Made by a program: the position numbers and the translations under genes. Below the pieces are notes generated by a model. It was not told where the DNA came from and did no database searches. It saw nothing but the letters and a program-made list of their open reading frames with translations. Of a stretch of DNA of 64,000 nucleotides, positions 4,701 to 50,875 are shown in pieces. The DNA is taken from positions 8,491,943 to 8,555,942 of the forward strand of contig OX387603.1 in the NCBI GenBank assembly GCA_947568835.1. Direction: 5' to 3'. This DNA comes from Protonemura montana (Eukaryota; Arthropoda; Insecta; Plecoptera; Nemouridae). Position 1 is the stretch's first letter. Every line of letters starts with the position of its first letter.

Positions 4701-7700
4701 GTAGTAGTGTTCTTAATAGAAACAATCACGCTAATTCAGCAAATATTAGTTGTTTACCTGTTATGAATAAATCTGTACGATCAAAGAGCTAAACACTGAC
4801 TTTAAAAGTAATTTCAATGGCAGGACTTTTATTATTAGTACAAAGACTTAAAAATGATGTGGATAAACGCTCTGTATAAGACTGTACACAAACAGAATAA
4901 AGTTTTAAGTCACATTTGAAATTAAAAATAACTTGCAGAATAGGAGTTCTCTAAAAAAAATTAAAGCAATATCAAAGTTTTATGATGTTTAACGTAGACT
5001 TGGATTTTGGCTTATTTTGAATGGTCTTACTTAAGTTAGGAAAAACCAATTTTCCTATTTTAGTAATTCCTATCCAAAGGCTGATTTCTGTTAATAATTC
5101 CGTTATCCTATACATTTTTATTTTTTACTGTCACGGAAACTGCTAAATACACGGCCTAGAATCAAAACAGAAAATAATTAAATAAATCAGAAAAAGTGAA
5201 ATGGTGAGATAGAATGAGGTGTGAATTACAGTAACTTAAAGATTTGGGAAAATTGGAAAAGTGTACACTAATTTAATTTGAGCCGTTTTAGGTTTTTCTG
5301 GTGCTTTTACTAGGGAGCTAAAACCAGCAAGCGATGGGTGGAAAGGAAGCTAGACTGAAAACTGCGTGGCCAAACCGGGATACGAACCCGTAGCCATCCA
5401 ATTACCGGTCGAGTGCTCCACCAAAAGAGGTATCCGGGCACCATATTCCAAATTTCGCGGATAAGGGATCCCTTCAAGGGGAAAGAGATCCTACAAGGGG
5501 AAGACACAACGCTCTGAAGGGATCCCTTAATCCATTCCGTGAAAACGGGAATATGTGTGCCCAAATAGCTCAGTTAAATGAAAAATGTCTTCACTAAGCT
5601 TTCATGGTTTTCCCTGCCTACCTCCGGTCTTCTTCATGTCCACCCAGGGCGAATGCAGCGGGGAGAAGTCAATCATTGCCAAGTTCAGCTGTGCTGAGTT
5701 GTTGAACGTGTAGAGCGAAGCACCGCTGGCTGCGCAAGCCAGCTTCGCATCAGTCCACGTTAGCTTGTGAACGTTAAATTTCAGCTCATTTTGCGGTGCA
5801 GGCTCCCTAAAGGAACAAAAAGTAAAATTTATGTCAAGCTTTTGGCATCAAGATAAAAAAAAAAAAAATTTTCAAAACATGCCAAGCCGTTTGGACCCAG
5901 CGTAATGTTGCTTAACTTCAGTTATCTCACAAGAACCGGTGTTTCCAATATGCCAAACCATTCGGTGTTCACTCATCCAGTACCTGGCTTAGCACAGCGT
6001 AGATTTATTTCGGTGATCTAACGACATCAGGTATTTTCAACACGCCAAACTAGACGATGGTCACTCATGCGGCGGTCACCTGACCCAGCGCAGTGTTGCT
6101 TAACTTCGGTGATCTGATAAGAACCGGTGTTTCCAACACGCCAAAACGTTCTCGGGTTACCCGCACTTAATACCTGACTTAGCACAGTGTTGCTTAACTT
6201 CGGTGAATTAGGAATCATTTCAATAAAATGTATGTCACAGTAAAAAGCAAGCTTTTGTATGAATAAAAGTAGAAAATTCAAAATACATTTGTACATATAT
6301 ATATATGTAAACATATGCTGGACTGTGATTATCAAACTCGAACACAAGCTTGAAAAAAGTATTTATGAATTTATCTTAACCTGCTAAGCTGGAATCTGTG
6401 TGCTTAAAAGGTTCAGTTAATAGAGCACTCGACCGGCTATTGGGACGTCTCGGGTTTGTATCCTGGTTCGGTCGCATATTTTTGTAGCCTAGCTCCTTTT
6501 TCATCCTTCGCTAGCTGGTTAAAGGTCTCTAGTAGAATAACCAGATGAATTAAAAACTCTGAATTAATTACTGTGGTTTGTGGATCTGACCTGTTGAGGG
6601 AGCTCACTCACTTTGCCTTGGTACCTTGGATCAGGTTTGCAAATTTAAGAGCACATCTCACATCTCCCGAGACTCCCGGATAAAATTAATTATGAGTTTG
6701 TTGACCGCAATCTGTAAGCTGGGTTTATTATGAAAAAAAAAACAAGCAGTTAAGCGTTTTGGAAACACCGGTTCTCATAAGATCACATTTGCAGAATAGG
6801 AATTTTACAAGAATAATTTTAAGAAAAATCGCACTTAAATAAATGCAGTTGAATTAAGTTTACTTTTCGTTAGAAGTCATGAGTAGATATAGAAAAGCCA
6901 ATTTTGTATACAATATATTCAATTCCAATTCCTCTGTGCTGAGATCTCAAAAAATTAATTACGAAAAAAAACATCATGAGCTGCTGTTCCCTGGAATTAT
7001 TTCCTTCACCAAACCAAAACAGAAACCGCTAAATACACCGCCTGGGACCCAGATAATAATGATTAAATACCTCTTCACATGTGAAATGTTGAATTTGGTT
7101 TTTGGTCCAAATTTCAGTTACCTGGCGACAGAAGTTTGGCCACATTACCAACACCTGCACGTACCTCAAACCAAGTATACAAATCTACAGTCGAGATTTG
7201 AAATAAATGCATATTTATTTCTGCGCTGATTACAAAATAATCTTGGTCGACCGAGCCAGTTTGTTTAAACTTCGATCTACTCTGTACCATGCACTATTTC
7301 TTTTCAATTTTAATTAAAATATAGATTGTCATCTGTGCATCAAGAAGAATCGACTGGCTTAATAAAAGAATCGAAATTACAAAGATGACAACATTTTATT
7401 CTCTGTCTGCGATTAGATCTTGGAAACACCAATAAAAAACTTTTCTCATAACCAATGGGCATTCTTGAAACCTCAAACAATTTGCATAATATGCTCTTGT
7501 ATCATCGCTGGTTGACAGAGATGATAGTGGCTAGGAGAGTCTTATGGCCTCTTATTCATTGCTACAATTCATTGCTACAACAGCGTTAAGTTGAAGATTT
7601 TGTGAACGGTTTGGCGTGTAAAAAACACTGCTTCTCATACGGTCACCCAAGTTAAGCAACACTGCGCTTGGTCAGGTATTGGATAAATGGCCATCATACA

Positions 7701-8231
7701 CATGGCCAGTTCTGTTTGGAAGCGAGGTAGGGAGGATGAAAAATAGTACAGCAACTTCACTCGTCTTGCTTATCAACCTCTCGACAACATGGATTTGTGG
7801 AGGAATCCTGTTGTTCGAGTTGTACCGTCCTTCGGAAGAGACGCAACGCCGGTGGTCACCTTGGTGCTCTTCGACAGGAGTAGGCTACGTGCCAGTTACG
7901 GGTTTCCCATCTTCCCATCTAGGCTAGGTAAGGTTCATCATCATTCTCACTGTCATTCATTCACCGATGAAATCAGACCAGTACCACAGGGCCTGTTTTC
8001 AAAACAGTGCGTCGCTAAACACAATAATCAATTAATCAATCGAAAGTTTTGTAGCCTTGCTAGCTAACAAAGTACAAACCCTTGATAAGCTTGTAAATTC
8101 TTTTTCTCGGGGGGGCACAATGTTCGGGAGTCCATGATAGAGAATGTCGACGTTTCATTTTTCAGTCCGTTCTCAAAATGCTTTGAGCTTGCAGACGTGA
8201 GACCCAGCACCAAAACCGCCAGCAGTGACAT
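1703..8231 (-). CDS. secreted C-type lectin-like protein with long helical, Pro/Thr/His-rich tail (4 exons)
   Basis: Four minus-strand exons join in phase to 697 residues: 8231-8080, 5806-5622, 4592-3111 and 1977-1703, all with GT-AG junctions. Exon 1 starts at the first Met of a hydrophobic signal peptide (MSLLAVLVLGLTSASS). A C-type lectin-like domain spans residues ~39-149: Cys39, the typical helix TWTDAKLACAASGASL with Cys75, Cys120, Cys138 and Cys146 in DFICLKK. These are the family's usual cysteine positions. The sugar/calcium motifs (EPN or QPD, WND) are absent, with HLDNC in place of WND, so calcium-dependent sugar binding is doubtful. After the lectin fold come ~350 residues of predicted helices, a Pro/Thr/His-rich linker of ~70 residues, and a final helical segment rich in Glu, Lys and Leu. 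I know no named family with this tail. Intron 1 carries 5S- and tRNA-derived SINEs; intron 3 carries a repeat shared with 10.86-11.1 kb. Diverged relatives of its exons lie upstream. Confidence 0.75.
2304..2645. repeat. intronic repeat, also at 10858-11100
   Basis: In intron 3 of the lectin-like gene. Blocks shared in order with 10858-11100 include cctcgatagtgc, gatccagccag/gtccagccagctc, ggtggagatg and attccaccca, followed by gtggcc. In both places the block sits just upstream (in minus-strand gene sense) of a last-exon sequence ending LEPFL or LEPSL. This is best read as intron sequence carried along in a local gene duplication, although a dispersed repeat is also possible. Confidence 0.5.
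4740..5285. other. intron 2 sequence, no feature seen
   Basis: AT-rich intron of the lectin-like gene, between exon 3 and a tRNA-derived SINE. No coding frame, repeat or RNA signature was recognised. Confidence 0.4.
5286..5430 (-). repeat. tRNA-derived SINE, minus strand
   Basis: The reverse complement reads tggtggagcactcgaccggt and then, ~20 bases later, ggttcgtatcccgg, a tRNA-like A-box and B-box with an intervening anticodon-like region. Its tail (gctggttttagctccctag, then gcaccagaaaaacc) recurs after the plus-strand copy at 6398 and in part at 59041-59082 and 10672-10710. Shared head and tail define a SINE family distinct from the 5S-derived one. Confidence 0.6.
5885..6215 (-). repeat. 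tandem array of 5S rRNA-like SINE heads
   Basis: Three to four minus-strand units of about 95 bp each contain the 5S-like words gtgttggaaacaccggttct, gatcaccgaagttaagcaac and a sequence like ctgggtcaggtattgg. The block aaccggtgtttccaa or its variant appears near 5935, 6030 and 6123, giving the period. The words match the 5' half of 5S rRNA (CGGTTCTCGTCCGATCACCG AAGTTAAGCA region), but each unit lacks the 3' half, so these are not 5S genes. They lie in intron 1 of the lectin-like gene. Confidence 0.65.
6398..6545 (+). repeat. tRNA-derived SINE, plus strand
   Basis: The head ggttcagttaatagagcact with cgaccggctattggga, then cgggtttgtatcctggttcg, matches the minus-strand copy at 5286-5430. It is followed by the same tail words (agctcctttttcatccttcg, then ctagctggtt). 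The B-box has drifted. The two copies form an inverted pair about 1 kb apart around the 5S-like array. Confidence 0.55.
6755..6795 (+). repeat. fragment of 5S-derived SINE head
   Basis: A short match to the family head: taagcgttttggaaacaccg followed by gttctcataagatcaca. It is truncated after the 5S-like A-box region. Confidence 0.5.
7610..8045 (+). repeat. 5S rRNA-derived SINE, near full length
   Basis: It begins with a 5S-like head (ctcatacggtcacccaagtt then aagcaacactgcgct, gtcaggtattggataaatgg). The body shared by all copies follows: agttctgttcgg, gcaacttcactcgtcttgct, tcgagttgtaccgtccttcgg and agtaggctacgtgcc. It ends with catcatcattctcactgtca and a terminal cagtgcgtcgctaaacacaa. A 5S promoter fused to an unrelated ~330 bp body is the structure of SINE3-class elements. 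Open frames of 80-90 codons inside it are non-genic. It sits in intron 1 of the lectin-like gene, opposite in strand. Confidence 0.75.
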
Positions 8232-9180
8232 CTGAAAAACTTAGCATCCTTTAAAATTGTCAGAGCTTTGGCTGCTGTTCGAATCTGGTAGATAAAAGTT
8301 CCTTGTACCTTAAATCATAGATACACGCATAGATCGGGCATTAATCGCGCGTTTTTAATTCATTTTAGAAATTAAGTAATTTTTCGTTATACATTAATTT
8401 TAATAACAGTGGAATAAGAAAAAAATTTGCTTTTTATTTAATTTAAAATATAATTTTATTAATGGAGGGAAAAGCTGCCGTATATTGCATATATTATAAA
8501 ACATAAAAACATCAAACATTTAGCATGGAGAAAAATTAACATGAACGATTAAAAACATGACTATTTACAAACGTAAGCTTAAATTAAAACTTAACACGCA
8601 AAGAGAGATTGCAGTTGGTAATATAATTGAAATATTTTAAAACTTTTGGTGGGTAGCTGTTTGATCTAGGTTTTTTCATGTCGATAAAAAAAAATGTCGA
8701 GTTAAAATTTTTCATAATCTCAACAGATATTAACCAGGTTATTTTGAAAGTTTCCTGAAAATGTAATCCAAGTCGTTATGGTCAAGAGCCAAAAAAAAAC
8801 ACCCTGTTACGGAAATAGGCATGCAGCACAGTGTCGACGGGGAGTGTTAGCAATTCTTTATTATCAGAGAAAAAATAATAACTTCTGATGTTACTTACCC
8901 ATAGGTGTCCTGAAGTCATTTCAGACAATTGGTTGAACCAGCAGTTAGTTTGTTTGAAAATTGATAAACAAGTGAAAATATCGAAAACAATCAAAAAGAA
9001 CGAAATGAGCTAAGACCAAAGTTATAAATATGGTCCTTCTGGGAGTCTTGGCATGGAAAGACTGAGAGGAATTCAAGAAAATTTGATGATCAATGGCCAG
9101 AGAGAAACAGCAGAGAAACACGTTTGGCAAGAGAGTTCAACCACTTATTCCATCTTCTTTCTTTATCTGCCATAATAAAC
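8232..9180. other. intergenic, AT-rich, no feature seen
   Basis: Upstream of the lectin-like gene's first coding exon. The promoter and any untranslated first exon should lie here, but I cannot place a TATA box or initiator with confidence. Short open frames on the minus strand at 8.8-9.1 kb look random. Confidence 0.3.
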
Positions 9181-9187
9181 AACCATC

Positions 9188-9250
9188 GATTAAACGTGTT
9201 GGAAACACCGGTTCTCGAGAGGTCACCAAAGTTAAGCAACACGCTATGAC
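9188..9250 (+). repeat. 5S-derived SINE head only
   Basis: aaacgtgttggaaacaccgg, then ttctcgagaggtcaccaaag and ttaagcaacac, are the best-preserved 5S-like words in the window. The match stops at about 9247 and the family body is absent, so this is a truncated copy or a lone head. Confidence 0.6.
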
Positions 9251-9828
9251 GTTTAAGTCAATGCTACATTTCCTGAAACCACTTGGGTAGCTATATCAGC
9301 TGAGAGGACTGCAACCTTCTGCAGCCGTGAGGAAGGATGGTCAGTACATGACAAGACTGGCATCTGCTAGCCGTGCGTGCGACTGAAGTTCTTCCCCAAC
9401 ACGGTGCCATTTTGGACATCCGTCACCACATACATGTATTGCCTATAGAATGCCAGGATCTTGATTCGACTTTTCTTATTTTTGTTGCTAATAAAATATA
9501 TCTACTGATATTTTAAAGCAAGGCGCGTGAATCTAGACCGGAGCGAACGAATAGAAGCACGTCTGACAGATCTTGGGCTGTCAAAGATGGCAGCCAATGT
9601 GCGGTCTACTCTTGTCACTGCTCCTGATCTAGTTGCCAGTACTTACGTGGTCAGTAGACTTCGGTCTGTTTGCCTGTGTGCGCCGGTTCGCTGGACAACA
9701 GGGTGGCTAGTATTGACACAGCGAAAACCTCCGTCCTCAATGTTCTCAATGTTCCCACTAGCCAATGGGAAGAGTCTGACAACCACCATTGCTTGTCCGC
9801 GAAATTCGGGTGTCGTTGAAACACAGTT

Positions 9829-10207
9829 GATTGATTGATTATTGTGTATAACGACGCAACATTTTCACAACAGACCCTGTGGCACTGGTTTAATAGCATC
9901 GGTGACTGAGTGAATGATGATGAACCTAACCTAGCCTAGATGGGAAGATGGGGGACTATCGGAAATCACTAAGGGTACTATCGGCTTAACGTCCCTTCCG
10001 AAGGACGGTGCAACGCGAACAACAGGATTCCTCCACAAATCCATACAGTCGAAAGGTTGATACGTTGCTGTACTAACTTTCGTTCCTTCAACCGCTCTCC
10101 TGAACAGAACTGGTCATGTGCATAATGGTCACCCATTCAATACCTGACTCAGAGGAGTCTTGCTTAACTTCGGTGATCTCACTAGGACCGGTGTTTCCAA
10201 CACGCAA
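9829..10207 (-). repeat. 5S-derived SINE, minus strand
   Basis: The reverse complement has head (gtgttggaaacaccggtcct, agtgagatcaccgaagttaa), the family body (tggccatt variant, cagttctgttcaggagagcg, gtaccgtccttcgg) and tail ending in a degraded cgtcgtt. It is nearly full length but has internal deletions and substitutions around 9960-9990. It abuts head to head the tail of another copy at 10208. Confidence 0.7.
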
Positions 10208-10310
10208 AATCTCATCATCATCATCATCCACTCATTCACTGACTCCATTAGACTAGTGCCACATGACCAGATGTCAAAACAGTGAGTCGTTAAACACAAC
10301 AAGAATTGAA
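10208..10310 (+). repeat. 5S-derived SINE tail, plus strand, fused to inverted copy
   Basis: This starts directly after the inverted copy with catcatcatcatcatccact and runs through cattagactagtgccacatg to gtgagtcgttaaacacaaca, the 3' third of the family. The junction at ~10207 makes a composite inverted structure. Confidence 0.65.
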
Positions 10311-10540
10311 TCAATCAATGAGCTGGTATCAGCTGGTAAGTTCAAGAATAAACCTTCAAACGCAATGGCAGTGTGTTTCACATCATTTCGGTGACTCAGC
10401 AGCAGCAGGTTTGTGTGGGTCCGGTGAGTGAGTGTGTGTGTATGGTGGAGTGGAGAGGGAGGTGGAAAGTTGGAAACTAGAAGCGCTTTTTTTCCTTCCC
10501 GATAGACGTTACGGTTTAATGACATGTCACAATGTTTGCA

Positions 10541-10615
10541 AACACTTTGCAATTCTGCTTGTAAGGATGGTTCAAGGTCGCCCACCATTTTGTTGAGAAA
10601 CATCCTGGCAACAAA
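10541..10615 (-). pseudogene. remnant of a paralogous last exon of the lectin-like gene
   Basis: In minus sense this encodes FLNKMVGDLEPSLQAEL, matching the end of the intact gene's last exon (FLNKMVDYLEPFL then stop). At the DNA level, 10549-10600 matches 1690-1740 closely, including bases beyond the intact gene's stop codon. Here the stop has become CAA, and the upstream part of the exon is missing. It is read as a decayed 3' end of a second gene copy. Confidence 0.55.
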
Positions 10616-10857
10616 AGCTGAGTTAGAATGGGATGTTTAGAAACCAATTCGGACAAACTTGGTTTGTCTGGTTATTCTTCAATGGAGCTGAACCCAGCAA
10701 GCGCTGCTTTCAATATTTCTTTGTCGGTTTTTACAAAACTTTTCAATTTCTGCAAAATTTGGTAAAAGGAATTAGACCTGAAAACTAAAAACCAAAAGAA
10801 ACGTAAACGAGAAACGATCCTGTCCGGAAATAAAAATGATGAAATCGTGATGAAATT

Positions 10858-11100
10858 GGCGGTGTAACCTCGATAGTGCGGTTTTTGAGCAGAGTCTCTC
10901 CTACAAAACGTATTATCAAGGTTCTGCATCACCAGTTTAGGTCCAGCCAGCTCTGGGACCCGGATAGGTAGGCAGTTGAGATGGGAAAAAAAGCCCGATA
11001 TTCCACCCAGGGCCCGAATTCAAGCCCAACATTCGGGCTAGGCGTGGCCCAACTTGAGCGACATTTTGGTCTAAAGCTAAAGTGTATCATTTTCGGGCTG
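10858..11100. repeat. second copy of the intron 3 repeat, interrupted by a LINE
   Basis: Matches 2304-2645 (see there). It ends in repeated cgggct words. The same kind of sequence resumes beyond the LINE at 13641 (tttcgggct), so the LINE at ~11.1-13.6 kb appears to have inserted into this block. The word tttcgggct on both sides could be a target-site duplication, but the word is common locally. Confidence 0.45.
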
Positions 11101-11104
11101 ACGA

Positions 11105-13600
11105 TTTCATTAAAATTTACATTTTTTTAATTTTTTAATTTTATTTTTAATTTATTTATTATTGGTCCAGATTGATTGTTCTACAATATTAGACATGTCA
11201 ATTTTTCTATACATCAAAACAATAAACAATAAAACAACAATATTACTAATCTTCAATTACAAGATTAAGTCACGTGTTTAAAAATTCCTTCACAGAATAA
11301 AAACATTCCTTCATTAAAAAAGCTTTTACTAAAGAAACAAAATCTTTTTGACCTTTTTTTTCTTTCAAGATCACAGGAAGTTTGTTAAAAAGTTTGATGC
11401 CTGTTATAATTGGTCCCTGTACATGATCACAGTTGATCTTGTCAATATTAAAAATTCTACATCCTGCTCTTATATCATGATCATGATTTTTTATCGTAGG
11501 TTTGTACAGATGTTTGTTATTGATAACATACATGATCATACTAAATATATACAAACATGGCAAAGGTAAAATAGAGAATTTAACAAACAACGGCTTACAA
11601 TGGTCCTTATAATATATTCCTGTAGTGGTTGGGTCATAGCTTGCCTTAGCTAAGTTTCTAACTGCACGTTTTTGTAGTGAAAATAGTTTTTTAATTTTGT
11701 GTGAATGTCCCCATAAAGTGATGCCGTACATCAGTCTTGAGTGCACATATGCGTAATAGACAGCTTTCGCTGAATTGAAATCAGACACAGCTAAAATTCT
11801 TTTCACTAAATAACAACCCGAAGCAACTTTTTTTGCAACTAGTTTAATGTGTGCTTCCCAATCGAGTTTATTATCAATAATCAGTCCTAGAAATTTAGTT
11901 TCAGTCTTTACCTGAATACTTCTACCATTAAGATATATTAAAGGGCTCGTTTCGTTATCATCATATGTCTTCTTCCTTTTAAAATTAATCAAAACCGATT
12001 TATTATTGTTAAGCAGTAGTTCGTTTTTAAAACTCCATTCTTCCATTTGCTTAACTGCATTTGAGCAAGTAGAAGCAATTGTATTTATATTGTCGCACAC
12101 AAGGTGTGTAGTGTCGTCAGCAAATGTAGTTATATCGCCATTAGTTATGGTGTTGAACAAATCATTAGTGTAAATTATGAATAATAATGGAGCTACAGTA
12201 CTGCCCTGGGGGATTCCTCTTTCTATTATAGTTTCACTTGATCTAATTGGGCCTAGTTTACTATTTATTTTGACAATTTGCGTCCTATTACTCAGGAAGG
12301 ATCTAATCCAATTATTAGCCATTCCACGAATTCCTAATCGATTAAGTTTTTCAAAGAGCTTATTGTGGTTAACCATATCAAAAGCTTTCGAATAATCATA
12401 AAATATGCCGTAAGCTTGATTTCCCGAGTATGTAGAAGACATAAGTTTATTCACAAATTGAGATATTGCAGTGGAAGTTGAATGGTTTTTACGAAAACCA
12501 TGTTGGCAATCATTTAATAGTTCATGTTGATTTATGAATGACGTTAATCTGGAGCAAAAAGCATTTTCAAAAAATTTAGAAAATACTGATTGGAGTGCTA
12601 GCGGTCTGTAGTTCTCTATCAGTTCTTTATTTCCGCTTTTATACAAAGGGCAGATAATAGACTTCTTCAATACTTCTGGAAACACACCAGTTTCTAATGA
12701 TAAGTTACATATGTAGATTAATGGTTCACACAATAAGACTGCAGCACGTTTTAAAATGTTTGCTGGAATTTCATCGTGACCAGCCGATCTTTTTCTGGTT
12801 ATTTTTTTAAATATTTCGTAATACTCTTTTCTTAGTAATGGAAATAAAAAGATACTCTTTTTATTTATTGTTATTTTATTTTTGTCTTGCAAGCTATTTT
12901 TATAAACGGGAATGTCCTCAAATAATGTCACTAGATTCATGATAGATTCTTTAAAATAGTTATTGAACAATTCCACAATTTCTTTGGTCTTTGTCACACT
13001 ATTTCCCTCATATTTCAAAGAAATTTCATCCCCATTATGGTTTCTTGAATTGTTATTATTTTTACGTATTATTGCCCAAGCAGCCTTTGATTTATTGTCT
13101 GCATTTTGTATTATATTTCTATTGTGTGTATTTATGGCCAAGGTGATTTCTGTCCTATATCTCTTTAATAGTTGTTTATATTTCTCTTTACTCTTAGCAG
13201 ATCCACTATTTCTATGTTTGAGGTATACATTTTTTACTTCAGAACTTAATGTGAGTAATTCTTTGGTATACCACTTTTTTCTGCTCTGTCTATAAGACAA
13301 TTTGATTTTCTTAACGGGGAATGCTACATTGAAACATGTATTAATCTTGAACATAAAAAGGTCAAACGCTGAATTAACATCCTCTAGTTTTATTACAGGC
13401 TCCCAATTGACCTCTTGTAGCTTCATCAAAAATACATCTACCTGACATTCTTTAAAGCATCGTTTATAAACATATGAACTGTCCTCTTGTGATGGCTTTT
13501 CCAATTGCTGATCTTTTATGATAGTAACAACTTGAGCTAAATGATCTGATAGTCCCATGTCAATATTATTCTGTAAAATCACAGTATTTGTATTAGTAAT
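11105..13600 (-). mobile_element. 5'-truncated non-LTR retrotransposon (LINE) with intact RT frame
   Basis: An uninterrupted minus-strand frame, 13582-11270, gives 770 residues. Residues 1-20 keep the end of the APE endonuclease (SDHLAQV), so the rest of that domain is lost by 5' truncation. The RT core follows: NYRPLAL near residue 325, HGFRKNHST, YDYSKAFD near 396, GIPQGSTVAPLLF, and the catalytic FADD near 485. A thumb and C-terminal region follow. The order and motifs are typical of Jockey/CR1-like LINEs, but I cannot fix the clade. The 3' (left) flank at 11105-11160 is a run of A/T consistent with an A-rich tail. The lack of stops over 770 codons points to recent insertion. Because the 5' part is missing, it is not autonomous. 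Confidence 0.85.
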
Positions 13601-13904
13601 AATGATTACTAATAATAATGATAATTATAATGATAATTAACTTTCGGGCTTTTAGGCTGTCGGGGGTTTTCGGGCTCAGTATTATTGCAGTGAACTATTT
13701 CGGGGTGGACTGGATCTAAAAAAAGTTCTAATATTCCTAGTTTGGGCACATAGCCGGGACTTAAACATGGGGGTCGGGTTCGGTCTGCGCTGACAAAAAG
13801 CAATAAATATCAAGTATCTGGTAGTCGAAAATTTGACTTGTCAAAAAATTGGCAGGTAAAAATGGTTACTTTTATGATACAAGAAAACATTTAATTTTAT
13901 TATC

Positions 13905-15300: not shown

Positions 15301-15699
15301 GTCTTACTAAATGCCTTAAATTAAACATTTTCTATCTGTTGTAATAAATAGAAGAAAAAAATCGATTTAAAAGAAATCCAATGTTGAATATTTGCATGCT
15401 TTTTAAAAATATTTGTATTTTCAAACATGTTCTGTTTGATTTTTTTTATTAGAACAGCTTTTTATCTTAAAGCTTATTAGATTTGTACCAAAATACTTCT
15501 AGTTTCTATAAACCTAACAGCGTTTTCAGGATCAGAACCCAGCCGATACTGCGTGTCAGCCAATTTAACTCCGACCATATTTTCTTTCCCCGAGATCGAA
15601 GAAAAATAACATCCACAAAACGTGACAACTGCGTTCTACGAAAACGACCTCGTTTTGGTAGCTAACCTTTGACAAAATCAAAGAAAATAATTCTCTCTC

Positions 15700-15790
15700 A
15701 CCGACAGACGGCGAGTTCAGGAGATGGAACAACGTCTCAAGCGCCACGGCGATCCTTGAAAGATTCTTGAAATCACCAGACGCCTTTCAA
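15700..15790 (-). pseudogene. remnant of paralogous exon 3 end of the lectin-like gene
   Basis: The minus strand reads SRIAVALETLFHLLNSPS before a GTGAGA donor. The intact gene has SRIYAVIEALDALFNLLRSP before GTGAGT at the end of its exon 3. The match in sequence, strand and splice phase region shows a duplicated exon end. No intact upstream part of exon 3 was found beside it. Together with 10541-10615 it frames a paralogous intron 3 swollen by two LINEs. Confidence 0.5.
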
Positions 15791-15835
15791 GCGGCGTCGG
15801 ATGATGGTGATTGCAATGCAACACAATACAATTGA

Positions 15836-15925
15836 GTGAGTGTAGTTGAAGAAGAAGATGAACCTAACCTAGCCCAAAAGGGAGGAGAAGAAACCCGGCG
15901 GCGGCACATTGCCTACTCGATTCGT
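15836..15925 (-). repeat. fragment of 5S-derived SINE body
   Basis: gatgaacctaacctagcc, then aagggaggagaagaaacccg and gcctactcgattcg, match the middle-to-3' part of the SINE family in reverse orientation. Confidence 0.5.
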
Positions 15926-15955
15926 TGAGCTCCGAAGGGATGCAGAGAAGGTGCT

Positions 15956-16187
15956 ATGTCCAGCACAGAGGTGACGATGAGTGTCCGCTTCTTTGCATGG
16001 AGAAAACAAGTACTCTGCCACAAAATGTCCAGCACATAGGTGACGGCGAGTGTCCGCTACTTTGCGTGGAGCGAAACGAGCACCCTGTCATGGAATGTCC
16101 AGCACATAGGTGACGGCGAGTGTCCGCTTCTTTGCGTGGAGCAAAACAAGCACCCTATCATGGAATGTCCATCACAGAGGCGACGGA
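15956..16187 (+). repeat. minisatellite, 70-bp unit, ~3.3 copies
   Basis: Units begin with atgtccagcacakaggtgac at 15956, 16025, 16095 and 16165 (partial). Each continues gagtgtccgcttctttgc, tggagcraaac and caccctrtcatgg. Units 2 and 3 are nearly identical; unit 1 is more diverged. The period is 69-70 bp, not a multiple of three, so the short reading frames across it are not a repeated protein. Confidence 0.8.
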
Positions 16188-16384
16188 ATAAAATGGTAAA
16201 ATCTCTCCCCCAACACCCATTAATTTAATTTCCTTTTCATTTACGCATCAATGCCCTGAAGACATTTTGAATATTAAATGTTTTACTATTTGAACAAATA
16301 AATGTATCGATTCTCTTTTTTATTATTTTTTTTTAGCCAGCAGTTAGATAGTTTATATTGCAAGCTCTATTTTGTAGAAAGTTT

Positions 16385-16690
16385 AGAGGGATGGAAGTAA
16401 GTACAGCAACTTCATTCGCCTTGCTTATTAACCTCTCAACAGCATGGCTTTGTGGAGGAATCCTGCTGTTAGAGTTGTACCGTCCTTCGGAAGGAACGTT
16501 AAGCCGGTGGTCCCCTTGGTGCTCTTCGATGGGAGTAGGCTGCGTGCCGGCACCAGGTTTCCCTTCCTCTCTTCTAGCCTAGGTTAGGTTCATCATCCTC
16601 ATCATCATAGTCCACTCATTCATCGACGCCATTAGACCAGTGCCGCATGGCCAGATGTCAAAGCAGTGCGTCGTTAAACATCACAAATAA
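16385..16690 (+). repeat. 5S-derived SINE, 5' truncated
   Basis: Lacks the 5S-like head. The body starts around agtttagagggatggaagta and runs through gtaccgtccttcggaaggaa and ggtgctcttcgatgggagta to cagtgcgtcgttaaacatca. It lies just downstream of the minisatellite and the inverted fragment at 15.84 kb. Confidence 0.65.
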
Positions 16691-17024
16691 AAATATATAA
16701 AAGTAGATTATTGTTTAAAGCAATATCAGAGTGAAATTAAGGTGAATCACAAACTGCGAAATGAGTTAGAGTATTTGCTCGCTGATCCTTGCTCAAGTCA
16801 AAACTATACTTAGGATATTTCTAAAACGTTTACTGAACTCATGTTAAAATAAAGGATATTGGATTCGTTGGCTGTCGAAATAAATTCTCGAAAAGTACAT
16901 GCGCATCTAGGATTTTTTTTTCGATGTCGACATCTATCTTTCGACCGAGAACTACCAAGGTTATCGACTGATAGTTGCCAATAGTAAATGTAGATGGCAA
17001 TCAAGTGCGTTCTCGATCGCCGAG

Positions 17025-17185: not shown

Positions 17186-17189
17186 CCAC

Positions 17190-17880: not shown

Positions 17881-17883
17881 TCT

Positions 17884-21687: not shown

Positions 21688-22130
21688 GCTTGCATCTTGG
21701 TAACACCGTCGCTCAAGAGACAACCAAAGTTAAGCAACACAGCGCTGAGTCAGATATTGGATGGGTGATCAATGATCATCATGCACATGGTCGGTTCTGT
21801 TCGGGAGAGAGGTTAGTGGGACGAAAGTTAGTACAGCAACTTCCCTCGCCTTGCTTAAAAACCTCGCGATTGCATGGATTTGTAGAGGAATCCTGTTGTT
21901 CGAGTTGTACCGTCCTTCGGAAGGGATGTTAATAGTGGTCCTCTTGATGCTTTCCGACAGGATTAGGCTACATGCTGACATCGGGTCCCCCCTCCTTCCT
22001 CCTAGATAAGGTTAGATTTCTTATCATCCTCATCATCATCATCATCCACTCATTCACCGACGCCAGTAGATCAGTGTCACAGAGCCAGATGTCAAAACAG
22101 TGCGTCGTTAAACACAACAATAATAATATA
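21688..22130 (+). repeat. 5S-derived SINE, near full length
   Basis: The head (ttggtaacaccgtcgctcaa, gacaaccaaagttaagcaac, acagcgctgagtcagatatt, ggatgggtgat) is followed by the complete family body and a tail of catcctcatcatcatcatca then cagtgcgtcgttaaacacaa. An A-rich ataataatataaaaataaaa run follows, consistent with a 3' tail. This is the most complete copy for a family consensus. Confidence 0.75.
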
Positions 22131-40796: not shown

Positions 40797-40932
40797 GAGG
40801 GTTCGATGTCACTACAATATTGATTTGTTGGTACAATAAGATAAGGCGCTTAAAAAGTAATATATGTATTTACAAATAGAAACATAAAAAAATAATGTAC
40901 AAACAATTTAGGATGTAATGTCATGACAGAAT

Positions 40933-40938
40933 AATAAA
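40933..40938 (+). terminator. candidate polyadenylation signal of the uncharacterised gene
   Basis: AATAAA ~137 bases after the TGA at 40796, lying just short of the last exon of the convergent amidase gene. Transcripts from the two strands may overlap here. Confidence 0.4.
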
Positions 40939-40993
40939 TAATTGCATCCATGAAGCTGTTTTTTTTTGTTGAGATCGCCGATCGTCCTGCGTC

Positions 40994-43900: not shown

Positions 43901-46900
43901 GTAGATAAGTTAGAACATGTATTGCAATTTGGGAACGTAATAAATAATAATCCGCATCAAAGTTATCGAAAAGTACCTACGGATGCGTTGGCAGACCATC
44001 AAAACTGTAATCAAGGGCAAAAATTGATCGACTCCAAATTGCCAACATACACGCATCTCATCTTCGCATACGCCCAAGAGGGAGTCATCCTGCATAGAAG
44101 CCGCTCACCTTTGAGAAGTTCGAGTCAGGTCGATAGTCAAATGGCTTCGGGATGCCCTTCATCTCGAAGAGCGCTGCCAGGGTGATCTCCAGCGAGTCGC
44201 CCATCTCTTTGATTTCAGTCTATAGGAAGTCCAGAAGACAGCGTAAAATTACACCCAAACGCTCTAAATTATTAATTGTGGATGCAAGCCGCTGGCATAT
44301 TATCGTAAGCAGACGCTAACCAGAGAGAATACATGAATACATAGAGAGAATCCTATAAGATGGTACGCTAAATAGTTGTCTTAGAAAATCTCCTCTTCTA
44401 TTATTTGTTTCTTGAAACCATGATAACGACATCGACGTAAATTAATTTCATTTTAAGAAACGGTTTTAGCAAAGTCCGATGAGGTTCTCGTTACCTTTAA
44501 CTACTTTTAGGCGTGAACCGAAACCGTGCCGAAACGATTAAAAAACAGTTCGTCGCAGTTTCAAGACATTGCTACCTCTAGCTCTAGGCGTGGGTGGAAA
44601 GAATTGAAACGTTTGCTCACTCACGCCTTCAAAGTTCAGTCGACTAGTGAAAATGAAATCTAATGCCAGATTGCCAAATTGGATTCTCCAATTCGCTTGG
44701 CCAATTGAGTTCACCTTCTCGACGGGCAAGCCGCATCTGTCTTGTAGGTGATTGGCGGCTTTCTGCACCGCAGTCTTCATATCCCTCGACACTGGCACAG
44801 TTGTCATCGACTTCTCGGCCTCCAGCATATAATATACTCGCAGCGACTTCAGATTCACCTGCACAAGAAAAATTTGCGTTTTTCTGAGTGGTTCACCGTA
44901 TAAATCATAGAAAAATCGATTTTTCTCATGAAAACTTGAATTTAATGTTGTCATTGCTCATTGTGCCCATGAAGGGATTCGGTAACCAGTCGGTGTTGAA
45001 AGCACGTCTACATGGAAAGAAAGCACGAAGAAAAACCTGATAAACTATTATCGCAAATCGAATATTGAAAACTTCAACAGCAACTCGTGCTGATGCTAAA
45101 TCCACTTTTACAAAGAAACAAACCCCTGGATCCACGTTACCAGCTGTTCCTGAGTGTTACCCACCTTGTCCTGAAGACGGAGTGAGTCGGCATGGGGTCC
45201 TGCGAGCACGCGCAAAACGGGTCCCAAATCCTCGGCGTACCGGCCCACGGGCCCGATTGTCAAGAAGTCAGGATAGTGTGGGTCCGGCATGGGTGGGAAG
45301 TGACCCTCGATCGGCGTCATGTCTGCACACACCCGAAGTGACATGGTTAGCATTTATTGAGATGGTTTCCGGACTGGATTTCAACTAGTACTCAACGTTT
45401 ACCATAAAGTATGATATGAAATGACCGTCCAATTTTGCAACGTGACATGAAGGGACCCATCTCATATCAGTGCACTTAGAAAATAGGCAATATTTCATCC
45501 TTAGGGAGTCAACAGCTTGCCGACCGGCATCCGATCATGGATCCGATCGGCAATCGGAAGGTCCCGGTTCGTATCCCAAATCGGTCGCACATCATCAAGC
45601 CTCACTGCCCCACCAGGAATAACAATTTAGTGTGCCAATATTTTTCACTAATGAAGGACGGTCACACTCGCTTCAACCCTGAATATTTATTTCGAAAGAT
45701 AGGAAGGAACAGAAGGATAAAGTCAGGACTGAGGAGACCACTTTGCCTTACTTCCCCGGAATTTTCCTGATAATAGTTTCTAATAACGGAAAGCTACTGT
45801 TAGGTACATCCACAGACACCGTGAATGGCACATAGTCGCATAGATGCTACTTTATCGATGATAAAGAGATTATGTGAGCCAAAAAGGGCGTCGACAGAAT
45901 TGATTGAGCCCACAAGGGTGATCTTGTCCTGGTACTCACGTGGCGTTGGCTTATGCCCAAAAATCCCGTTATAGAGCGCCGGCACGCGAATGGAGCCCGC
46001 CAGATCGGAGGCGATGCCGATCACCGACGCCGCCGAACCCACGAGAGCGCCCTGAGGAAAGTAAATAGCTATTTTGTCGTTGGTAACTCGGCAACACGGA
46101 CATCCTGTCGTTCAAACATCGTAGATCTTTCTTATCGTAAATAATACTAATTGGGGAAACTACAAATTCTAGATAAAGCGAGTACAAATGTAGCACCCAA
46201 GGCCTCCAGGAAATTAACAGGGGCGGGCTAGAATTGTTTGATGCAGAGTGTTAAAGTCCTATATCTTTCCATATACAATGCGTGCAGTTTGAATTACTTC
46301 CGGGAGATAATTTTAAAAAAAGGAATAAGGAAATACCGAATCAGGAAAAGGGAGATGTCTTCAATCACCCCTATCAGTATCTCAAGGTCGATAGCATGTA
46401 AAATTCTTATCCGTTATTATCTACGAAGGGAATATCAGGGAATCCTTATCACTCTTAATGCCAACTGATTTGGGAAGACAAGATTCTATTTCAGAAGAGC
46501 ATGGCAAATCGCCAGCAAGATCTTTATCTGATTCTTGATTATCTCCAGAGGTCAGAATATGAAACTGTTCAGATTTCACTCTCTCGCCTCTCATCCTTGT
46601 AGTAAAAAAATCAATAAAGTCGTAAAATTACGATAAAAAATGTGAATTGGCATCTCTACTTTATTTATAAACAAACGCATTTGCTCGTTAAACGCGAAAC
46701 GTTAGTTTTATGATTTTCCTGAAACTAGTTTTTACTCGTCTATAGCATTAGCAACACATAAGAAGAAAATAAAAAATGACTGTCAGGTCATCAATACCAA
46801 GTAAAGTAGGTAATATATTTCTTTCTACCAAGAAGTGCGTTATTCAACTAAGATAAGTGCAGTAATAAGGCAACGAGGGCATTGACAGTACCACTCCTAT

Positions 46901-49900
46901 CCAGCCCAACGTTTCGACATTTTGTCCTCAACAAAGTAGCAACTGCTTTTCACCCTGGAAATCCCTTTACCTCTCCCCCACTGGATCCGCCCGATGTCCT
47001 GCGCGTATCGTACGGGTTGAGCGTCCTACCGCACAGGTGGTTGTACGTCTCCCAGCTGTAGCACAACTCGGGTGTGTTGGTGACAGCGATGGGGATCGCT
47101 CCAGCGCTTCTCATCCTGGCCACAGCGACCCCGTCGGCCGACGCTCTCACCCCTTTCCGAGACACGGAACCGCCGGTCAACGGCATGCCTGAGGAAGGGA
47201 CAAGAGTATTTTTTAACTGTATAACCCCGTATATCCTTTTTCAATTAGGGATATAGGTGCAGGAAGGTAAAATACCACTTCATGGAGAGGCGTTTTTCCG
47301 GTCAACGGCGTGCCTGGAGTGTAGCATTCCTTTCTATCGTGGGATAATGGAGAGGACATATTTTACCAGGCAGGCTTGGGACGCTCGGGACCCTGAAGAG
47401 GGGTCTTTTCGAGACAATGTACCGGACTTCATGGTAGATTCCTGATCTTCCTGTGTAATGGGCAGGTGTTTCTGAATGACGATTGAATCGGACGGTGTGC
47501 ACATGGATACATTTTTCTACCTCGCAATGACGTGCATGTTTTTAAAGATTACCTTGGAAGGGCCTATACTCGATTTTTTCGCCCGTCTTGCGACGAGCAA
47601 CGTAAAAAAACTCGTTATTCGCATTCTGAGATATTGCAGGGAACCTTGTCAGTATTGCTGCACAAATCATTCTAAAAATTATTTCCCATGCATAGAATCG
47701 GACCTCGGTCAAGAGCAAATTCCGAGATAATGATCAGATTTATTTAATGATTTGTGGGGTTTAACGATGCACTGTTTTGACAACGGGCCCTGTGGCACTA
47801 GTCTAATGGCATCGGTGAATGAGTAGATGATGATGAACCTAACCTAGCATAGAAGGGAGAAGGGGAACCCGGTGTGGCAATTGTAGCCAACTCCTGTCGA
47901 AGGCGATCACCGGCTAGACGTCCCTCCCGAAGGACGGTACAACGCGAACTACAAGATCCCGCCACAAATCCATGGAGCCGAGTGGTTGATGATAAGCAAG
48001 GCAATTGAAGTAACAGTACTAACTTGCATCCCTCCAACCTCTCTCTCGAATAGAACTATGGTCATGTGCATAATAGTCAGCCATCCAATACCAGTCAAAA
48101 AGTGTTGCTTAACCGGAGTTTAAGTCGTATGGTCGGTAGGCTTAATGTTTTTAATAATAAAACCGATTTGGAAATTAAAGATTATGATTTATTTTTTACT
48201 AAAACTGCGTAGATAGTTTGGTCGCGATGTCACAATGAAGCGCAGAAAACAAAAAATGTAAAGCTATTACCGTTTGCTGGTTAGAGGTCGCCAGTTTTTC
48301 TGAATCCATTAAAATGTTAGTTGGTAATTAGGTCACAGTTATTACTGATGACAGTCGATCGTTACAAAGTTTCCCGCCATTTATCGAACTGGTTCTACTG
48401 CTTTCGGTTGAAAAAAAAAACAGCTGTGTCATAACACGGGTCATAATAGGCGTGCCCTAATTTTTCGACGTTTCAAACTATCGGTACCTCGACGCCTCGG
48501 TTGGGTCCCGCACATTTCGATCCGGCGAAGTGAAAGCTACTCTCGTTTCCCTTTCGTAGAGATGAAAGCGATAAATTAACGCTGCTAGTTACGCTTTTAA
48601 ATTGAATGCTTCGAACACCTCTTAATTTCATAGTGAATTAGATGAAAAACATTAAAATCTGTCTTAAATTAAATTCTGTTTCCAACGGTTAATTAATCTG
48701 TCGTCTGTACAGCTAGCAAGTGTGTTTCATAGGTAAACCACATCATAATTTCATAAAATCATAATTTAGTGATCAGCTAAACTCTGGTTTCATATAATCA
48801 CTAAAGTTGGACACATACCTTTATTTAAATTATTCTCTAAACGTAAGGTAAAACAAAGGCAGACCTACAAACCTGGCCTCTCCACGTTGAGCACTAATTA
48901 TCGGACACAGTCTAATAATTAGTGCTAAATTACTGGTAATTTCCTTCTAAATTTTAGAATTTATGCTCCAGTAGTGTTCGAGTTAAATGCATTCCAAGTT
49001 TTGTTGGGGGGGGGGGGGGGGGGGGGCAGGTTTACGCTCACCCACCTAATTGTGTACTTTTGGTCAAATATAGCCTGTTAATAAGTGCCCAATTAGTACT
49101 GTTCACACACAAATACCATTTGTTTTTGTACAAAATAAGCCTTAAATCGATGGCTCCACTTCACACACCTTTGACGCTACAGCTCTCTTTTATCGTGATT
49201 GGTACACCCAGTAACGGCGTCTCCTCCTCCATCTGCTTCTGGGAGCGGCGTCCCGACGCAATCAGGGCGTCGACATCGAGCGCCTCTGCCAGCGCCGACA
49301 CGAGACGACTCTCGACGACGCCGTTTACCACGGGGTTGACAGCCTCTAAGCGGGCGAAATACGCACGAATCACGCTCTCGCTAGACAGCTGGGAAAAGAG
49401 ATAAACAAGAGTAAAAATCGCATTTATTAGACTCTCTGAAGATGATAAGATTATGACATTGCTCTGGCATTATGTTTGAAAAGATAAAAAGTCATAACAT
49501 TTGAGATAACTTTGTTTATAAGAGATCATATTTACCTTGAAGTGTTTATATAGCTATAAGCTAGAATATCATGGACATCAGTAAACTTTTCAAATTTGCG
49601 ATTGGAAGATTTGAAATCTGTCACCACTTATCATACAAACGCAGGCGAACAAATATGGAAGCTGTTTTCTACCATAAAAAAGTGACTACATTAGTTTGAA
49701 TTCAAAAAGCAATGGTAACCCACGCATGGTTTCCAAAAACAGCCATGTGCCCAGTTCTGTTCGGGAGAGAGATAGGAGGGATGAAAGTTATTACAATAAC
49801 TTCACTCGTGTTGCTTATCAACCTTTCGACAGCATAGATTTATGGAGGAATCACGTTGTTCGCGTTGTAACGTCCTTCGGAAGGGACGTTAAGACGGTGG

Positions 49901-50875
49901 TCCCCCTGGTGCTCTTCGATAGGAGTAGGCTACGTGCCGGCACCAGGTTTCCCCTCCTCCCTTGGTTTATCTTCATCCTCATCATCATCCACTCATTCAC
50001 CGACGCCACTAGACCAGTGCCGTAGGGCCCGTTGTCATAACAGTGCGTCGTTAAACACACTCATCAATAAAAAACAGACATCCCAAGAATCTCTGTGAAA
50101 CCAGTGGATTGTTTCTTATTATTCTAAGGCTAGAGGTAAGACGATGCTTTTTGAGTTCGCAGTATTATTAGCGAGGTAGATTTTCACATTAGCGATCAAT
50201 TACTAAAGAACGCAAAGAAATCTAAAGTTTCCCATGATGCTATTGTGAAAATGTGTAATAAAACAAAAAGGTAAACGCACTGTAGCTGCACTGCAGGTAG
50301 GTATGTAGGTAATTTAGCGTGGCGATGTCGTGCCTCGAACAACTCGATTATAACTTTCGTGAGAGTCATGCGGCATTACTGGACTTGTAGATGAGGAATT
50401 AAATGGGAAGGTGGACACTGGGGTGGCGCCCTCTCCCCCAAAAAAACAGGCATGCAGCCGCCACCTAAACTTCGAACCTAAATTCTTCGCATCAACAATG
50501 TTTTCTATTCTTTAGGACCGCAGAAATCATAATTCATATTCACTATGTTCATGCGTGTGTTCAATTGTTGCTAACATGTTTGTTTTAAGTTCAATATTCA
50601 CATTTCAAACAAGCTTGCAAGGTTTTTATCTTCCTGTATGCTTAATTCTGACCGTCTTGAACCGTTCTGAACCGTTCTTGACCGTTCTGACCGTCTCCAC
50701 CAACCTGGCCCGTCCTGATCTTCCTTGCCAGGCTCACAGCACTCTGGAACAGGACGTCGTCTTCGACGGGAGGTACTGTTCTTCGAGGTCCACGGTCTCG
50801 CCACCAGTACAAAGGCAGCAGAAGTAGCGAGATGATTCTCTGGAGGAGTGCGACCAGCCTTACGGTTAGGTCCAT
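40994..50875 (-). CDS. FAAH2: fatty-acid amide hydrolase 2-like serine hydrolase (10 exons)
   Basis: Ten exons, all GT-AG and phase-consistent, give 555 residues: 50875-50705, 49388-49169, 47188-46971, 46051-45940, 45322-45165, 44858-44625, 44219-44109, 43790-43623, 42012-41830 and 41086-40994. The start ATG is in a good context (ACCATGG). Residues ~5-25 (VRLVALLQRIISLLLLPLYW) form an N-terminal membrane anchor, as in FAAH2. The amidase-signature triad is complete: Lys124 in TIKES, Ser199 in GGSSGGEGAL and nucleophile Ser223 in SDLAGSIR. The spacings (75 and 24) equal those of rat FAAH (142, 217, 241). The C-terminal FLYPTYPE, YSGIFNVLGLPATHVPMGLN, VVAAPYQDRL and ERAFGGWV are typical. The family hydrolyses fatty-acid amides such as anandamide and oleamide at membranes; the substrate here is not known. 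Introns carry SINEs and a MITE-like element. Confidence 0.9.
41438..41510 (-). repeat. unclassified ~72-bp dispersed repeat, copy 2 (inverted)
   Basis: The reverse complement has accggctcgtttgctcagca, aaacgctggctctctgactt and atgaactcaa, the same order as 33675-33746. It lies in the last intron of the amidase gene. Confidence 0.55.
43113..43421. mobile_element. possible MITE (short inverted-repeat transposon)
   Basis: The left end cagaggtgtggccag...gggggtg and the right end, in reverse complement, cactgtggtgtagccagggg pair imperfectly over ~18 bases. They enclose ~310 AT-rich bases with no coding frame. The right end has a C-run of nine or more. No 8-bp target duplication is obvious, so family assignment (hAT-like) is tentative. 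Sits in intron 8 of the amidase gene. Confidence 0.35.
45505..45620 (+). repeat. tRNA-derived SINE fragment
   Basis: cagcttgccgaccggcatcc, then ggtcccggttcgtatcccaa and atcggtcgcac, match the head of the elements at 5286 and 6398 in B-box and flanking words. The A-box half is degenerate. It lies in an intron of the amidase gene. Confidence 0.4.
47290..47320. repeat. duplicate of the first bases of amidase exon 3
   Basis: tccggtcaacggcgtgcctg at ~47298-47317 repeats gccggtcaacggcatgcctg at ~47173-47192, which covers the start of exon 3 and its acceptor. In minus sense the duplicate also has a CAG before GCACGCCGTTGACC. It could act as an alternative acceptor or be a chance/template-switch duplication. 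Confidence 0.4.
47756..48122 (-). repeat. 5S-derived SINE, minus strand, head damaged
   Basis: The reverse complement has the family body and tail (agttctattcgagagagagg, gtaccgtccttcgggaggga, cattagactagtgccacagg, cagtgcatcgttaa). The head is reduced to ggttaagcaacacttttt and actggtattggatggc. Intron 2 of the amidase gene. Confidence 0.65.
49006..49026 (+). repeat. poly-G tract
   Basis: About 21 consecutive G on the plus strand (poly-C on the sense strand of the amidase gene), in intron 2, ~140 bp from exon 2. The length may be a sequencing or assembly estimate. Confidence 0.85.
49741..50072 (+). repeat. 5S-derived SINE, 5' truncated
   Basis: Starts within the family at catgtgcccagttctgttcg and is otherwise complete to cagtgcgtcgttaaacacac. 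It lies in intron 1 of the amidase gene, antisense to it. The 109-codon frame through it is not a gene. Confidence 0.7.

Follow-up and report, generated by a model that had tools for sequence, protein, structure and literature searches.

The 64-kb window analysed here (the whole stretch of 64,000 nucleotides) holds several dispersed copies of a repeat together with a cluster of 5S-like sequences in tandem, raising the question of what kind of element these copies represent and how the tandem cluster is related to them.

A 5S-headed SINE family in the window and beyond

The original prediction placed a single 5S rRNA-derived SINE family at seven or more sites in the window, besides several fragments, each of the seven named sites with a 5S-like head, a common body and a conserved end. 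A similarity search united all seven sites in one family, but a 5S-like head was found in only four (7601+ and 9822-, and in diverged or partial form 21688+ and 47740-) and not in 16387+, 49741+ or 10211+. In 7/7 copies we see, with changes, the predicted cat/tca run as well as an end resembling cagtgcgtcgttaaacacaa. We list the family members below.

7601..8040, + strand: SINE copy comprising head, body and tail (P-I-X-Y-T); Rfam 5S match of 28 bits at 7601-7721, below the cut-off
9822..10212, - strand: SINE copy comprising head, tail and a body with small deletions; Rfam 5S match of 30.2 bits at 10099-10218, below the cut-off
10211..10310, + strand: SINE fragment, tail alone, adjoining the head of the 9822..10212 copy
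16387..16695, + strand: 5'-truncated SINE copy, body and tail without head
21688..22128, + strand: SINE copy whose head has diverged, followed by body and tail
47740..48135, - strand: SINE copy with part of the head, followed by body and tail
49741..50067, + strand: 5'-truncated SINE copy, body and tail, with a probable target-site duplication (AAAAACAGCCAT / AAAAACAGACAT)
5894..6206, - strand: tandem cluster of 5S-like heads at ~92-96 spacing, with neither body nor tail; an instance of type A head multiplication
9195..9242, + strand: SINE head fragment
15850..15940, - strand: SINE body fragment
6754..6786, + strand: SINE head fragment of 33 bases, 91% identical to the consensus; short and tentative
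57367..57394, - strand: body-like match of 28 bases; tentative, possibly due to chance

Using the 7601 copy as query, we recovered five other long window copies at 71-82% identity (E from 1.2e-62 to 2.7e-77) and the tail piece at 10212 at 75% identity (E = 3.8e-12); compared with the window consensus, the window copies show 84-89% identity. None of the seven is the strongest 5S match of the window, which instead lies in its single tandem-head cluster at 5894-6206 (42.4 bits at 6052-6154, against an Rfam cut-off of 38 bits).

Next, we searched the 258-Mb genome, whose COX1, with TGA read as Trp and AGA as Ser, appears arthropod-like and so fits the host originally proposed. The family does extend beyond the window: of 4383 candidates, all 40 that were scored are full-length or nearly full-length matches at 95-97% identity, beside which we found 3 short extra pieces. 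Across 30 young full-length copies, the element measures 438 bp, followed by (AAT)n. Its start, ACCGAAC or a sequence that differs from it by one base, corresponds to 5S +1 in an ungapped alignment, and in 29/30 copies it ends in CACAAA followed by AAT-type repeats, of the form CACAAAT(AAT)n. Target-site duplications of 8-15 bp flank 27/30 of these copies (mismatched-flank controls were mostly 0), bearing out the SINE identity. The 29 independent copies average 97.9% identity to their own consensus, from which TTTT is absent. The element is a 5S-headed, SINE3-like non-autonomous retrotransposon of ~438 bp plus (AAT)n.

We also considered whether the family occurs in viral contigs, where a 17-base tail pattern gave 14 matches, 13 of them over those 17 bases alone, and one viral contig dense with open frames (L002) matched over 26 bases at 88%; we took all of these as chance. 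SINE body patterns had no match in either viral contigs or genome contigs, a collection from which own-genome records may be left out.

The head was compared with the host's own 5S rRNA, as had been proposed, and the resemblance proved far greater than in shuffled sequence, with a score of 123 reached by 0/1000 dinucleotide shuffles (29.5 +/- 6.9, maximum 64). Without gaps, 68/92 positions are identical. In the query head, the matches to host 5S are 14/16 in 49-64, 9/15 in 65-79 and 13/13 in 80-92; the majority of the 29 copies carries one further departure from 5S, at position 82, and past position 92 the likeness falls to chance level. The boxes of a type 1 control region (box A, IE and box C) would lie in this part of the head. 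Since the head appears to have retained the 5S internal control region to a large extent, RNA polymerase III would most likely start at the element's first base.

At its other end, the SINE has a stem-loop followed by AAT-type repeats, a kind of 3' end also carried by LINEs of this genome with ORFs of ~1240-1260 aa, which we take to be of I-clade type. Having scored 150 of 1781 candidate reverse-transcriptase places and examined 25 downstream stretches, we found three families with an I-like end and, among those stretches, no LINE end identical to the SINE tail. The best of the three LINE ends compared, L087, aligned to the SINE tail with a score of 31, reached by 2/2000 shuffles (uncorrected for the choice among three), whereas the scores of the other two were reached by 87/2000 (L085) and 972/2000 (L086). 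The SINE and the L087 LINE share the same stem before GTTAAAC and are alike in the stem plus GTTAAACnCCACAAA. In the SINE RNA, the stem-loop would be followed by GTTAAACaCCACAAAT(AAT)n, an end of the type seen on these LINEs, and insertion probably proceeds by target-primed reverse transcription; the target-site duplications are observed directly, and a LINE of this kind is the putative partner.

Tandem multiplication of the promoter segment

The more unusual feature of this SINE family, absent from the original prediction, is the tandem multiplication of its promoter-bearing part. Because a 184-base tandem-head query returned 0 candidates, probably through the skipping of common words, tandem units were counted by junction patterns. 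A 91-bp unit, in which head 49-92 is fused to body 1-47 at the letters AAGTTA that both have in common, accounts for 26,402 junctions genome-wide, and a 92-bp unit consisting of the whole head (1-92) accounts for 2,340; reversed-pattern controls gave 0 in both cases. Segment 49-92 is thus common to both tandem types. Head-body junctions number 35,521 (control 0), which together with the 26,402 implies ~9,100 loci, each holding close to 4 units on average, and places ~0.9% of the genome in 91-bp units, estimates that are rough since the head-body and body-head patterns differ in tolerance.

Multi-unit elements have the architecture P-(IX)n-Y-T, with a terminal unit that runs to the SINE end, so that tandem units of a SINE part plus a longer terminal unit, a hallmark of squamate SINE-derived satellites (sSats), are found here. 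Among elements that have their ends, the unit number n goes as high as 13 (L108); the array L110, which lacks them, has 22 units. Many arrays continue into SINE body and tail, and head-only arrays also occur, such as the cluster in the window, L064, L066 and L081. Dispersed and tandem repeats alike go back to this one SINE.

To explain the nearly equal unit lengths, we considered that body segment X might be a decayed second head, and rejected this idea. P scored against X no better than chance (matched or beaten by 627/1000 shuffles), and the score of 5S 93-119 against X was reached by 376/1000.

In a non-random sample of 215,402 bases (34 segments) made up of the window and the flanks of examined loci, 9/11 elements that contain I as well as Y have a single unit and 2 are multi-unit, and 5 further segments have more than one I but no Y. 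That sampled elements are mostly single-unit, and that the window's tandem cluster lacks body and tail, were counted against the explanation that we favour below.

Arrays are commoner towards chromosome ends, taking contigs as chromosomes. Among the places listed, 54/58 exact type A arrays lie less than 20% of the contig from an end, where 40% would be expected if evenly spread, compared with 18/40 of the best single copies (p = 5e-7). On one chromosome, C1, the first 2 Mb hold 13/25 multi-unit but 3/39 single-unit places among those listed (p = 1.8e-4). The subtelomeric bias characteristic of sSats is therefore seen here among the places listed.

Origin of the multi-unit elements

We consider it probable that these observations reflect a 5S-headed SINE whose control-region segment has been tandemly multiplied both by DNA-level change and by multi-unit retrotransposition, giving a SINE-to-satellite continuum that is commoner distally. 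A large share of copies have had this segment multiplied as a 91-bp or 92-bp unit. Once an element is inserted, its unit number would shift by changes in the DNA, and RNAs with several units would retrotranspose as well; the two processes together would spread the family along a range that runs from SINE to minisatellite or satellite.

Evidence for retrotransposition comes from target-site duplications, found round multi-unit elements in 6/22 rows (L053, L072, L111 with 7 units, L114, L118 and L120) and in 1/5 further rows (L127). A clear duplication is absent in 20/27 multi-unit rows, which counts against multi-unit retrotransposition; among these 27 rows, two insertions are each represented twice, in L108 and L109, and L113 has its left flank cut off. 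L060, L068 and L076 added nothing to this test, having yielded no row that combines body and tail with two I segments, and a duplication at L117 was discarded, as mismatched controls reached the same in 2/21. Evidence for DNA-level change comes from L108 and L109, which share an insertion (left flank 99.4% identical over 355 bases) but differ in unit number at the duplicated loci, with 10 vs 9 and 13 vs 6. In 14 arrays with 85 units (L058, of mixed unit types, excluded), unit similarity is higher within arrays than between them (0.963 vs 0.953; 0/5000 permutations), a small effect that nevertheless amounts to the within-array homogenisation expected of an sSat.

The unequal unit numbers of L108 and L109 could also follow if satellite growth occurred at the DNA level only, with single-unit insertions expanding by unequal exchange or slippage and multi-unit RNAs being immobile. 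Array-private changes in L062 and L064 and an ABAB unit order in L058 (both judged by eye) and a distal bias like that of satellites also fit this account, which we regard as rather unlikely: L118 begins within X, upstream of an I, and is flanked by a 9-base target-site duplication, so that at least two units would have been present in the inserted RNA, an argument that depends on that one duplication. At the opposite extreme, one or a few multi-unit master genes would have passed on the tandem part almost entirely by retrotransposition. The target-site duplications round multi-unit elements are consistent with this, as is the recurrence of the same two junctions thousands of times (these being the two patterns searched), and on the body+tail tree the multi-unit labels of the 91-bp type tend to group together (9 changes vs 15.8 in shuffles). 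That tree of 66 rows has only three starred branches, however, and single- and multi-unit copies are intermixed on it; together with the unequal unit numbers of L108 and L109 at their common insertion, this makes master genes alone an unlikely source.

Two further accounts would detach the arrays from the SINE. Head-only arrays, in the window and at L064, L066 and L081, might belong to an independent 5S-pseudogene satellite merely resembling the SINE head, and 5S-derived satellites have been described (cited in PMC12692304); array units nevertheless bear the SINE's own departures from 5S (by eye), SINE body lies inside the 91-bp units and many arrays pass into SINE body and tail, leaving this account very improbable. 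Least credible of all is that inverted array pairs 3-4 kb apart, five of which are among the places listed on C1, are the terminal repeats of a 5S-built DNA transposon: in the 2/5 pairs examined, the shared sequence extends past the arrays into the flanks, and both arms are SINEs that possess body and tail. These two pairs look like a duplicated block, and for them we reject a transposon.

As to function, the choice of repeated unit might be due to the 5S internal control region that it holds, segment 49-92 being present in both the 91-bp and the 92-bp type. A retroposed 5S promoter without upstream signals is probably weak, and mouse L1 retrotransposons carry tandem promoter-bearing monomers at their 5' end. 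By analogy, tandem control regions might raise or rescue Pol III transcription and have been selected as promoter monomers, with satellites as a by-product, a suggestion that we hold to be unlikely. L1 is autonomous and Pol II-transcribed, unlike the Pol III-type SINE described here, and the functional likeness between them is putative.

Relation to known SINEs and satellites

The original suggestion that, this class being best known from fish, a dense 5S-headed family in an arthropod may be undescribed is not supported in that form: SINE3-1_TC from Tribolium and HaSE3 and others from Lepidoptera have already been described in insects (PMC7245038, PMC10886601, PMC3272025, PMC8010984), the first of them apparently mobilised by the I clade (PMC7245038). 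According to the descriptions consulted, members of the SINE3 class (SINE3-1_TC, HaSE3, PxSE4/PxSE5 and zebrafish SINE3) share with our element a 5S-derived head, an unrelated body and target-site duplications, and apparently also an internal promoter region and a LINE-like 3' end. Those same descriptions set them apart from it in making no mention of tandem multiplication of a promoter segment; the word "tandem" is absent from the PxSE paper, and "tandem repeat" from the HaSE3 paper.

The closest precedent is provided by the squamate sSats, which in snakes have a tandem unit of 67 nt (PMC10702118). As far as they are described there, they show the same choice of unit (the 3' portion of the head, including a promoter box, combined with some of the body), a longer terminal unit running to the SINE end, a subtelomeric preference and variable unit number. 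They derive from tRNA-related SINEs in vertebrates, whereas the head of the present family comes from 5S rRNA and its host genome is arthropod-like. In this family, moreover, some multi-unit elements are flanked by target-site duplications and one appears to have been inserted with more than one unit, for which we saw no counterpart in that account of sSats (PMC10702118). The family thus adds an abundant SINE-to-satellite case in a lineage distant from squamates and in another SINE class, with a unit choice (3' head part with promoter plus body start) and a distal bias like those of snake satellites. Copies range from 1 to >20 units, several with target-site duplications, so that the way in which a transposon gives rise to a satellite can be tested directly.

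Satellites with tandem 5S-related sequence in fish, frogs and plants are described as arising from 5S rDNA (cited in PMC12692304), whereas here the route is through a SINE and body sequence is part of the 91-bp unit. Finally, dimeric or multimeric SINEs, such as Alu and the Dip/B1 multimers (PMC10702118) and Twin of Culex (cited in PMC8010984), are reported to carry more than one promoter-bearing monomer per element, as do the elements described here. Our family differs from them in that it is mainly the promoter segment that is repeated, in up to 22 units and in near-exact 91/92-bp register.

The 5S rRNA-headed element and its copies

Using the copy at 7601 as a BLAST query, we found five further long copies in the window together with a tail piece and several fragments, and a repeat search of the window was concordant with this result. 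The original prediction named seven copies, all said to share a 5S-like head; 5S-head sequence is present in four of the seven, while two are 5'-truncated and one consists of tail only. A clear target-site duplication was seen at copy 49741 only, as expected for copies that are older. Rfam scored three 5S-like places in the window (cut-off for 5S, 38 bits), the top one falling outside the named copies, inside a tandem head cluster at 5894-6206.

5S-like places in the window (Rfam)
6052-6154, minus strand: 42.4 bits, above the cut-off
10099-10218, minus strand: 30.2 bits, below the cut-off
7601-7721, plus strand: 28.0 bits, below the cut-off

Compared with Drosophila 5S rRNA, seven of nine window head pieces score above all 500 shuffles, the scores of heads 21688 and 47752 being reached by 4 and 31 of 500; one body piece and one tail piece, serving as controls, are at chance level. 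None of the nine heads exceeds all 500 shuffles against human 5S rRNA, where 1 to 118 reach the score. Derivation of the head from 5S rRNA, as originally proposed, is borne out in the host genome (258.5 Mb, 34 contigs; 47 5S matches scored above cut-off): the query head scores 123 against host 5S, a value reached by 0 of 1000 shuffles (29.5 +/- 6.9, maximum 64). Its likeness is strong over segments 17-64 (43/48 identical) and 80-92 (13/13) and weakest over 1-16 (5/16) and 65-79 (9/15), and a majority head built from 29 copies agrees with host 5S at 68 of 92 positions. The likeness ends near position 92, with host 5S 93-119 matching the bases after the SINE head at chance level.

Searching the genome with a 418-base query gave 4383 candidates; the 40 that were scored all proved to be complete or almost complete copies (95-97% identity), and thirty of these were fetched. 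All thirty begin with ACCGAAC or a one-base variant, which puts their start at 5S position 1. CACAAA and AAT-type repeats close 29 of the thirty, and target-site duplications flank 27 of 30, with none found on searching L024, L043 and L051. Two copies (L048 and L049) have common flanks, leaving 29 independent copies whose majority consensus spans 438 bases (mean identity 97.9%) and contains no TTTT. That the element is a SINE is secure.

In the SINE tail, a stem fold lies immediately 5' of GTTAAACACCACAAA, and fetched LINEs with ORFs of about 1240-1260 aa terminate in a stem and, after it, GTTAAACCCCA or a close variant. Of 2000 shuffles, 2 reach the score of the tail aligned with the LINE end in L087, 87 the score with L085 and 972 the score with L086. 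Given the resemblance of stem and end to these LINE 3' ends, and the L087 alignment, we read the SINE partner as a candidate I-type LINE.

Tandem units and how their number changes

Dividing the head into P (1-48) and I (49-92), and the remainder into X (body 1-47), Y (remaining body) and T (tail), copies take the form P(IX)nYT or (PI)nXYT, with segment 49-92 present in both unit types and the X-to-I joint falling on shared letters, AAGTTA. Where an element has its ends, n reaches 13; one array lacking them has 22. Across the genome, with up to three mismatches permitted in each pattern, head-to-head junctions occur 1208 + 1132 times (reversed control, 0), body-to-head junctions 13,245 + 13,157 times (control, 0) and ordinary head-to-body junctions 17,891 + 17,630 times (control, 0). 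Tandem growth of the SINE is secure as an observation.

5S-headed SINEs are already known from insects (PMC7245038, PMC10886601, PMC3272025, PMC8010984), and one of them, SINE3-1_TC, appears to owe its mobility to the I clade (PMC7245038). SINE-derived satellites have been reported in squamates, with a subtelomeric preference and, in snakes, a unit that joins the promoter box-bearing 3' head to a portion of the body; their restriction to squamates is uncertain, per the authors (PMC10702118). We found no arthropod SINE-derived satellite in the titles and abstract openings of open-licence papers on SINE-derived tandem repeats and arthropod 5S SINEs.

Units may arise by change at the DNA level or by retrotransposition of multi-unit elements; for each route the support comes from few loci. 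Stretches L108 and L109 share an insertion, their left flanks being 99.4% identical over 355 bases, their middle parts 94.5% and their right flanks 91.5% over 199, yet their unit numbers are unequal (10 v 9 and 13 v 6), which argues for unit change in situ. Judged by eye, L062 and L064 carry array-private changes and L058 shows ABAB order; units are slightly more similar within (0.963) than between arrays (0.953; 0/5000 permutations). As for retrotransposition, element L118 opens within X, at its base 12, and runs on into I. A single-unit element truncated there would be without I, which means that two or more units were present in the RNA that inserted. A duplication surrounds the whole multi-unit element in 6 of 22 rows (L053, L072, L111, L114, L118, L120); the 22 rows count two insertions twice and include L113, whose left flank is missing, and a duplication at L117 was discarded from the tally. 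Among five additional multi-unit elements, a duplication was found at L127 and none at L128, L129, L025 and L092.

On a body-and-tail tree of 66 rows, multi-unit copies of the 91-bp type are clustered, with 9 changes where shuffles give 15.8, and multi-unit and single copies are intermixed, with 50 of 60 inner branches drawn open; the single copies were mostly picked as best query matches, favouring one young subfamily. PMC3272025 cites the view that 5S promoters, being dependent on upstream signals, are presumably weak or silent once retroposed. In light of this presumed weakness, multiplication of the internal control region merits testing, and we offer a promoter role for it as a hypothesis.

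Array positions along the host contigs

Taking contigs as chromosomes, we found that 93% of 58 exact head-head arrays, among the matches listed, lie within 20% of the contig from an end, where an even spread would put 40% and where 45% of the best 40 single copies lie (p = 5e-7). The arrays were built from 96 of 100 listed head-head places, on contigs C1-C5, the 4 on C11 being dropped. In a like-for-like list over the first 24.7 Mb of C1, the first 2 Mb hold 13 of 25 multi-unit clusters vs. 3 of 39 single clusters among the matches listed (p = 1.8e-4).

Inverted pairs of SINE arrays 3-4 kb apart were also observed on C1, near 8.95, 20.98, 22.42, 23.32 and 26.09 Mb; the two pairs fetched look like a duplicated block, since their flanks are common and the part between is 94.5% identical. 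The right end of C1 (L122, G000:C1:33122342-33122741) reads as a (GGTTT)n array, possibly a TTTGG-type telomere motif, seen at 1 of 6 contig ends inspected.

Other features of the host and the window

At the start of C11 (L018-L022), groups of three 5S genes, with both strands represented, repeat about every 9.5 kb. In L022 one of these genes is adjoined by a histone 3' stem-loop, suggesting linkage of 5S genes to histone repeats. The 15.9-kb contig C34 is probably mitochondrial. Its COX1 looks arthropod-like when TGA is translated as Trp and its two AGA codons as Ser. COX1 at C4:5760925-5762262 scores exactly as the copy at C34:3504-4841, with a further piece at C4:5776811, and is either a nuclear mitochondrial insert or an assembly join.

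Other features of the window
11270-13624, minus strand: 784-residue open frame with reverse transcriptase domain (Pfam RVT_1, E 2.6e-30), part of a LINE
15935-16143: 70-base unit present three times in tandem (repeat search)
52349-52646, minus strand: match to the metazoan SRP RNA gene at 243.8 bits
55100-62600, minus strand: likely organic anion transporter exons (Pfam OATP in 4 open frames)
58209-58280 and 60717-60788, plus strand: two tRNA genes, identical 72 bases

A motif like the 70-base unit comes after the LINE end in L096. The window also contains an inverted pair (5358-5418 and 6423-6483), and the region near 6423-6500 resembles, by eye, a tRNA-related repeat, similar sequence lying to the right of L109.
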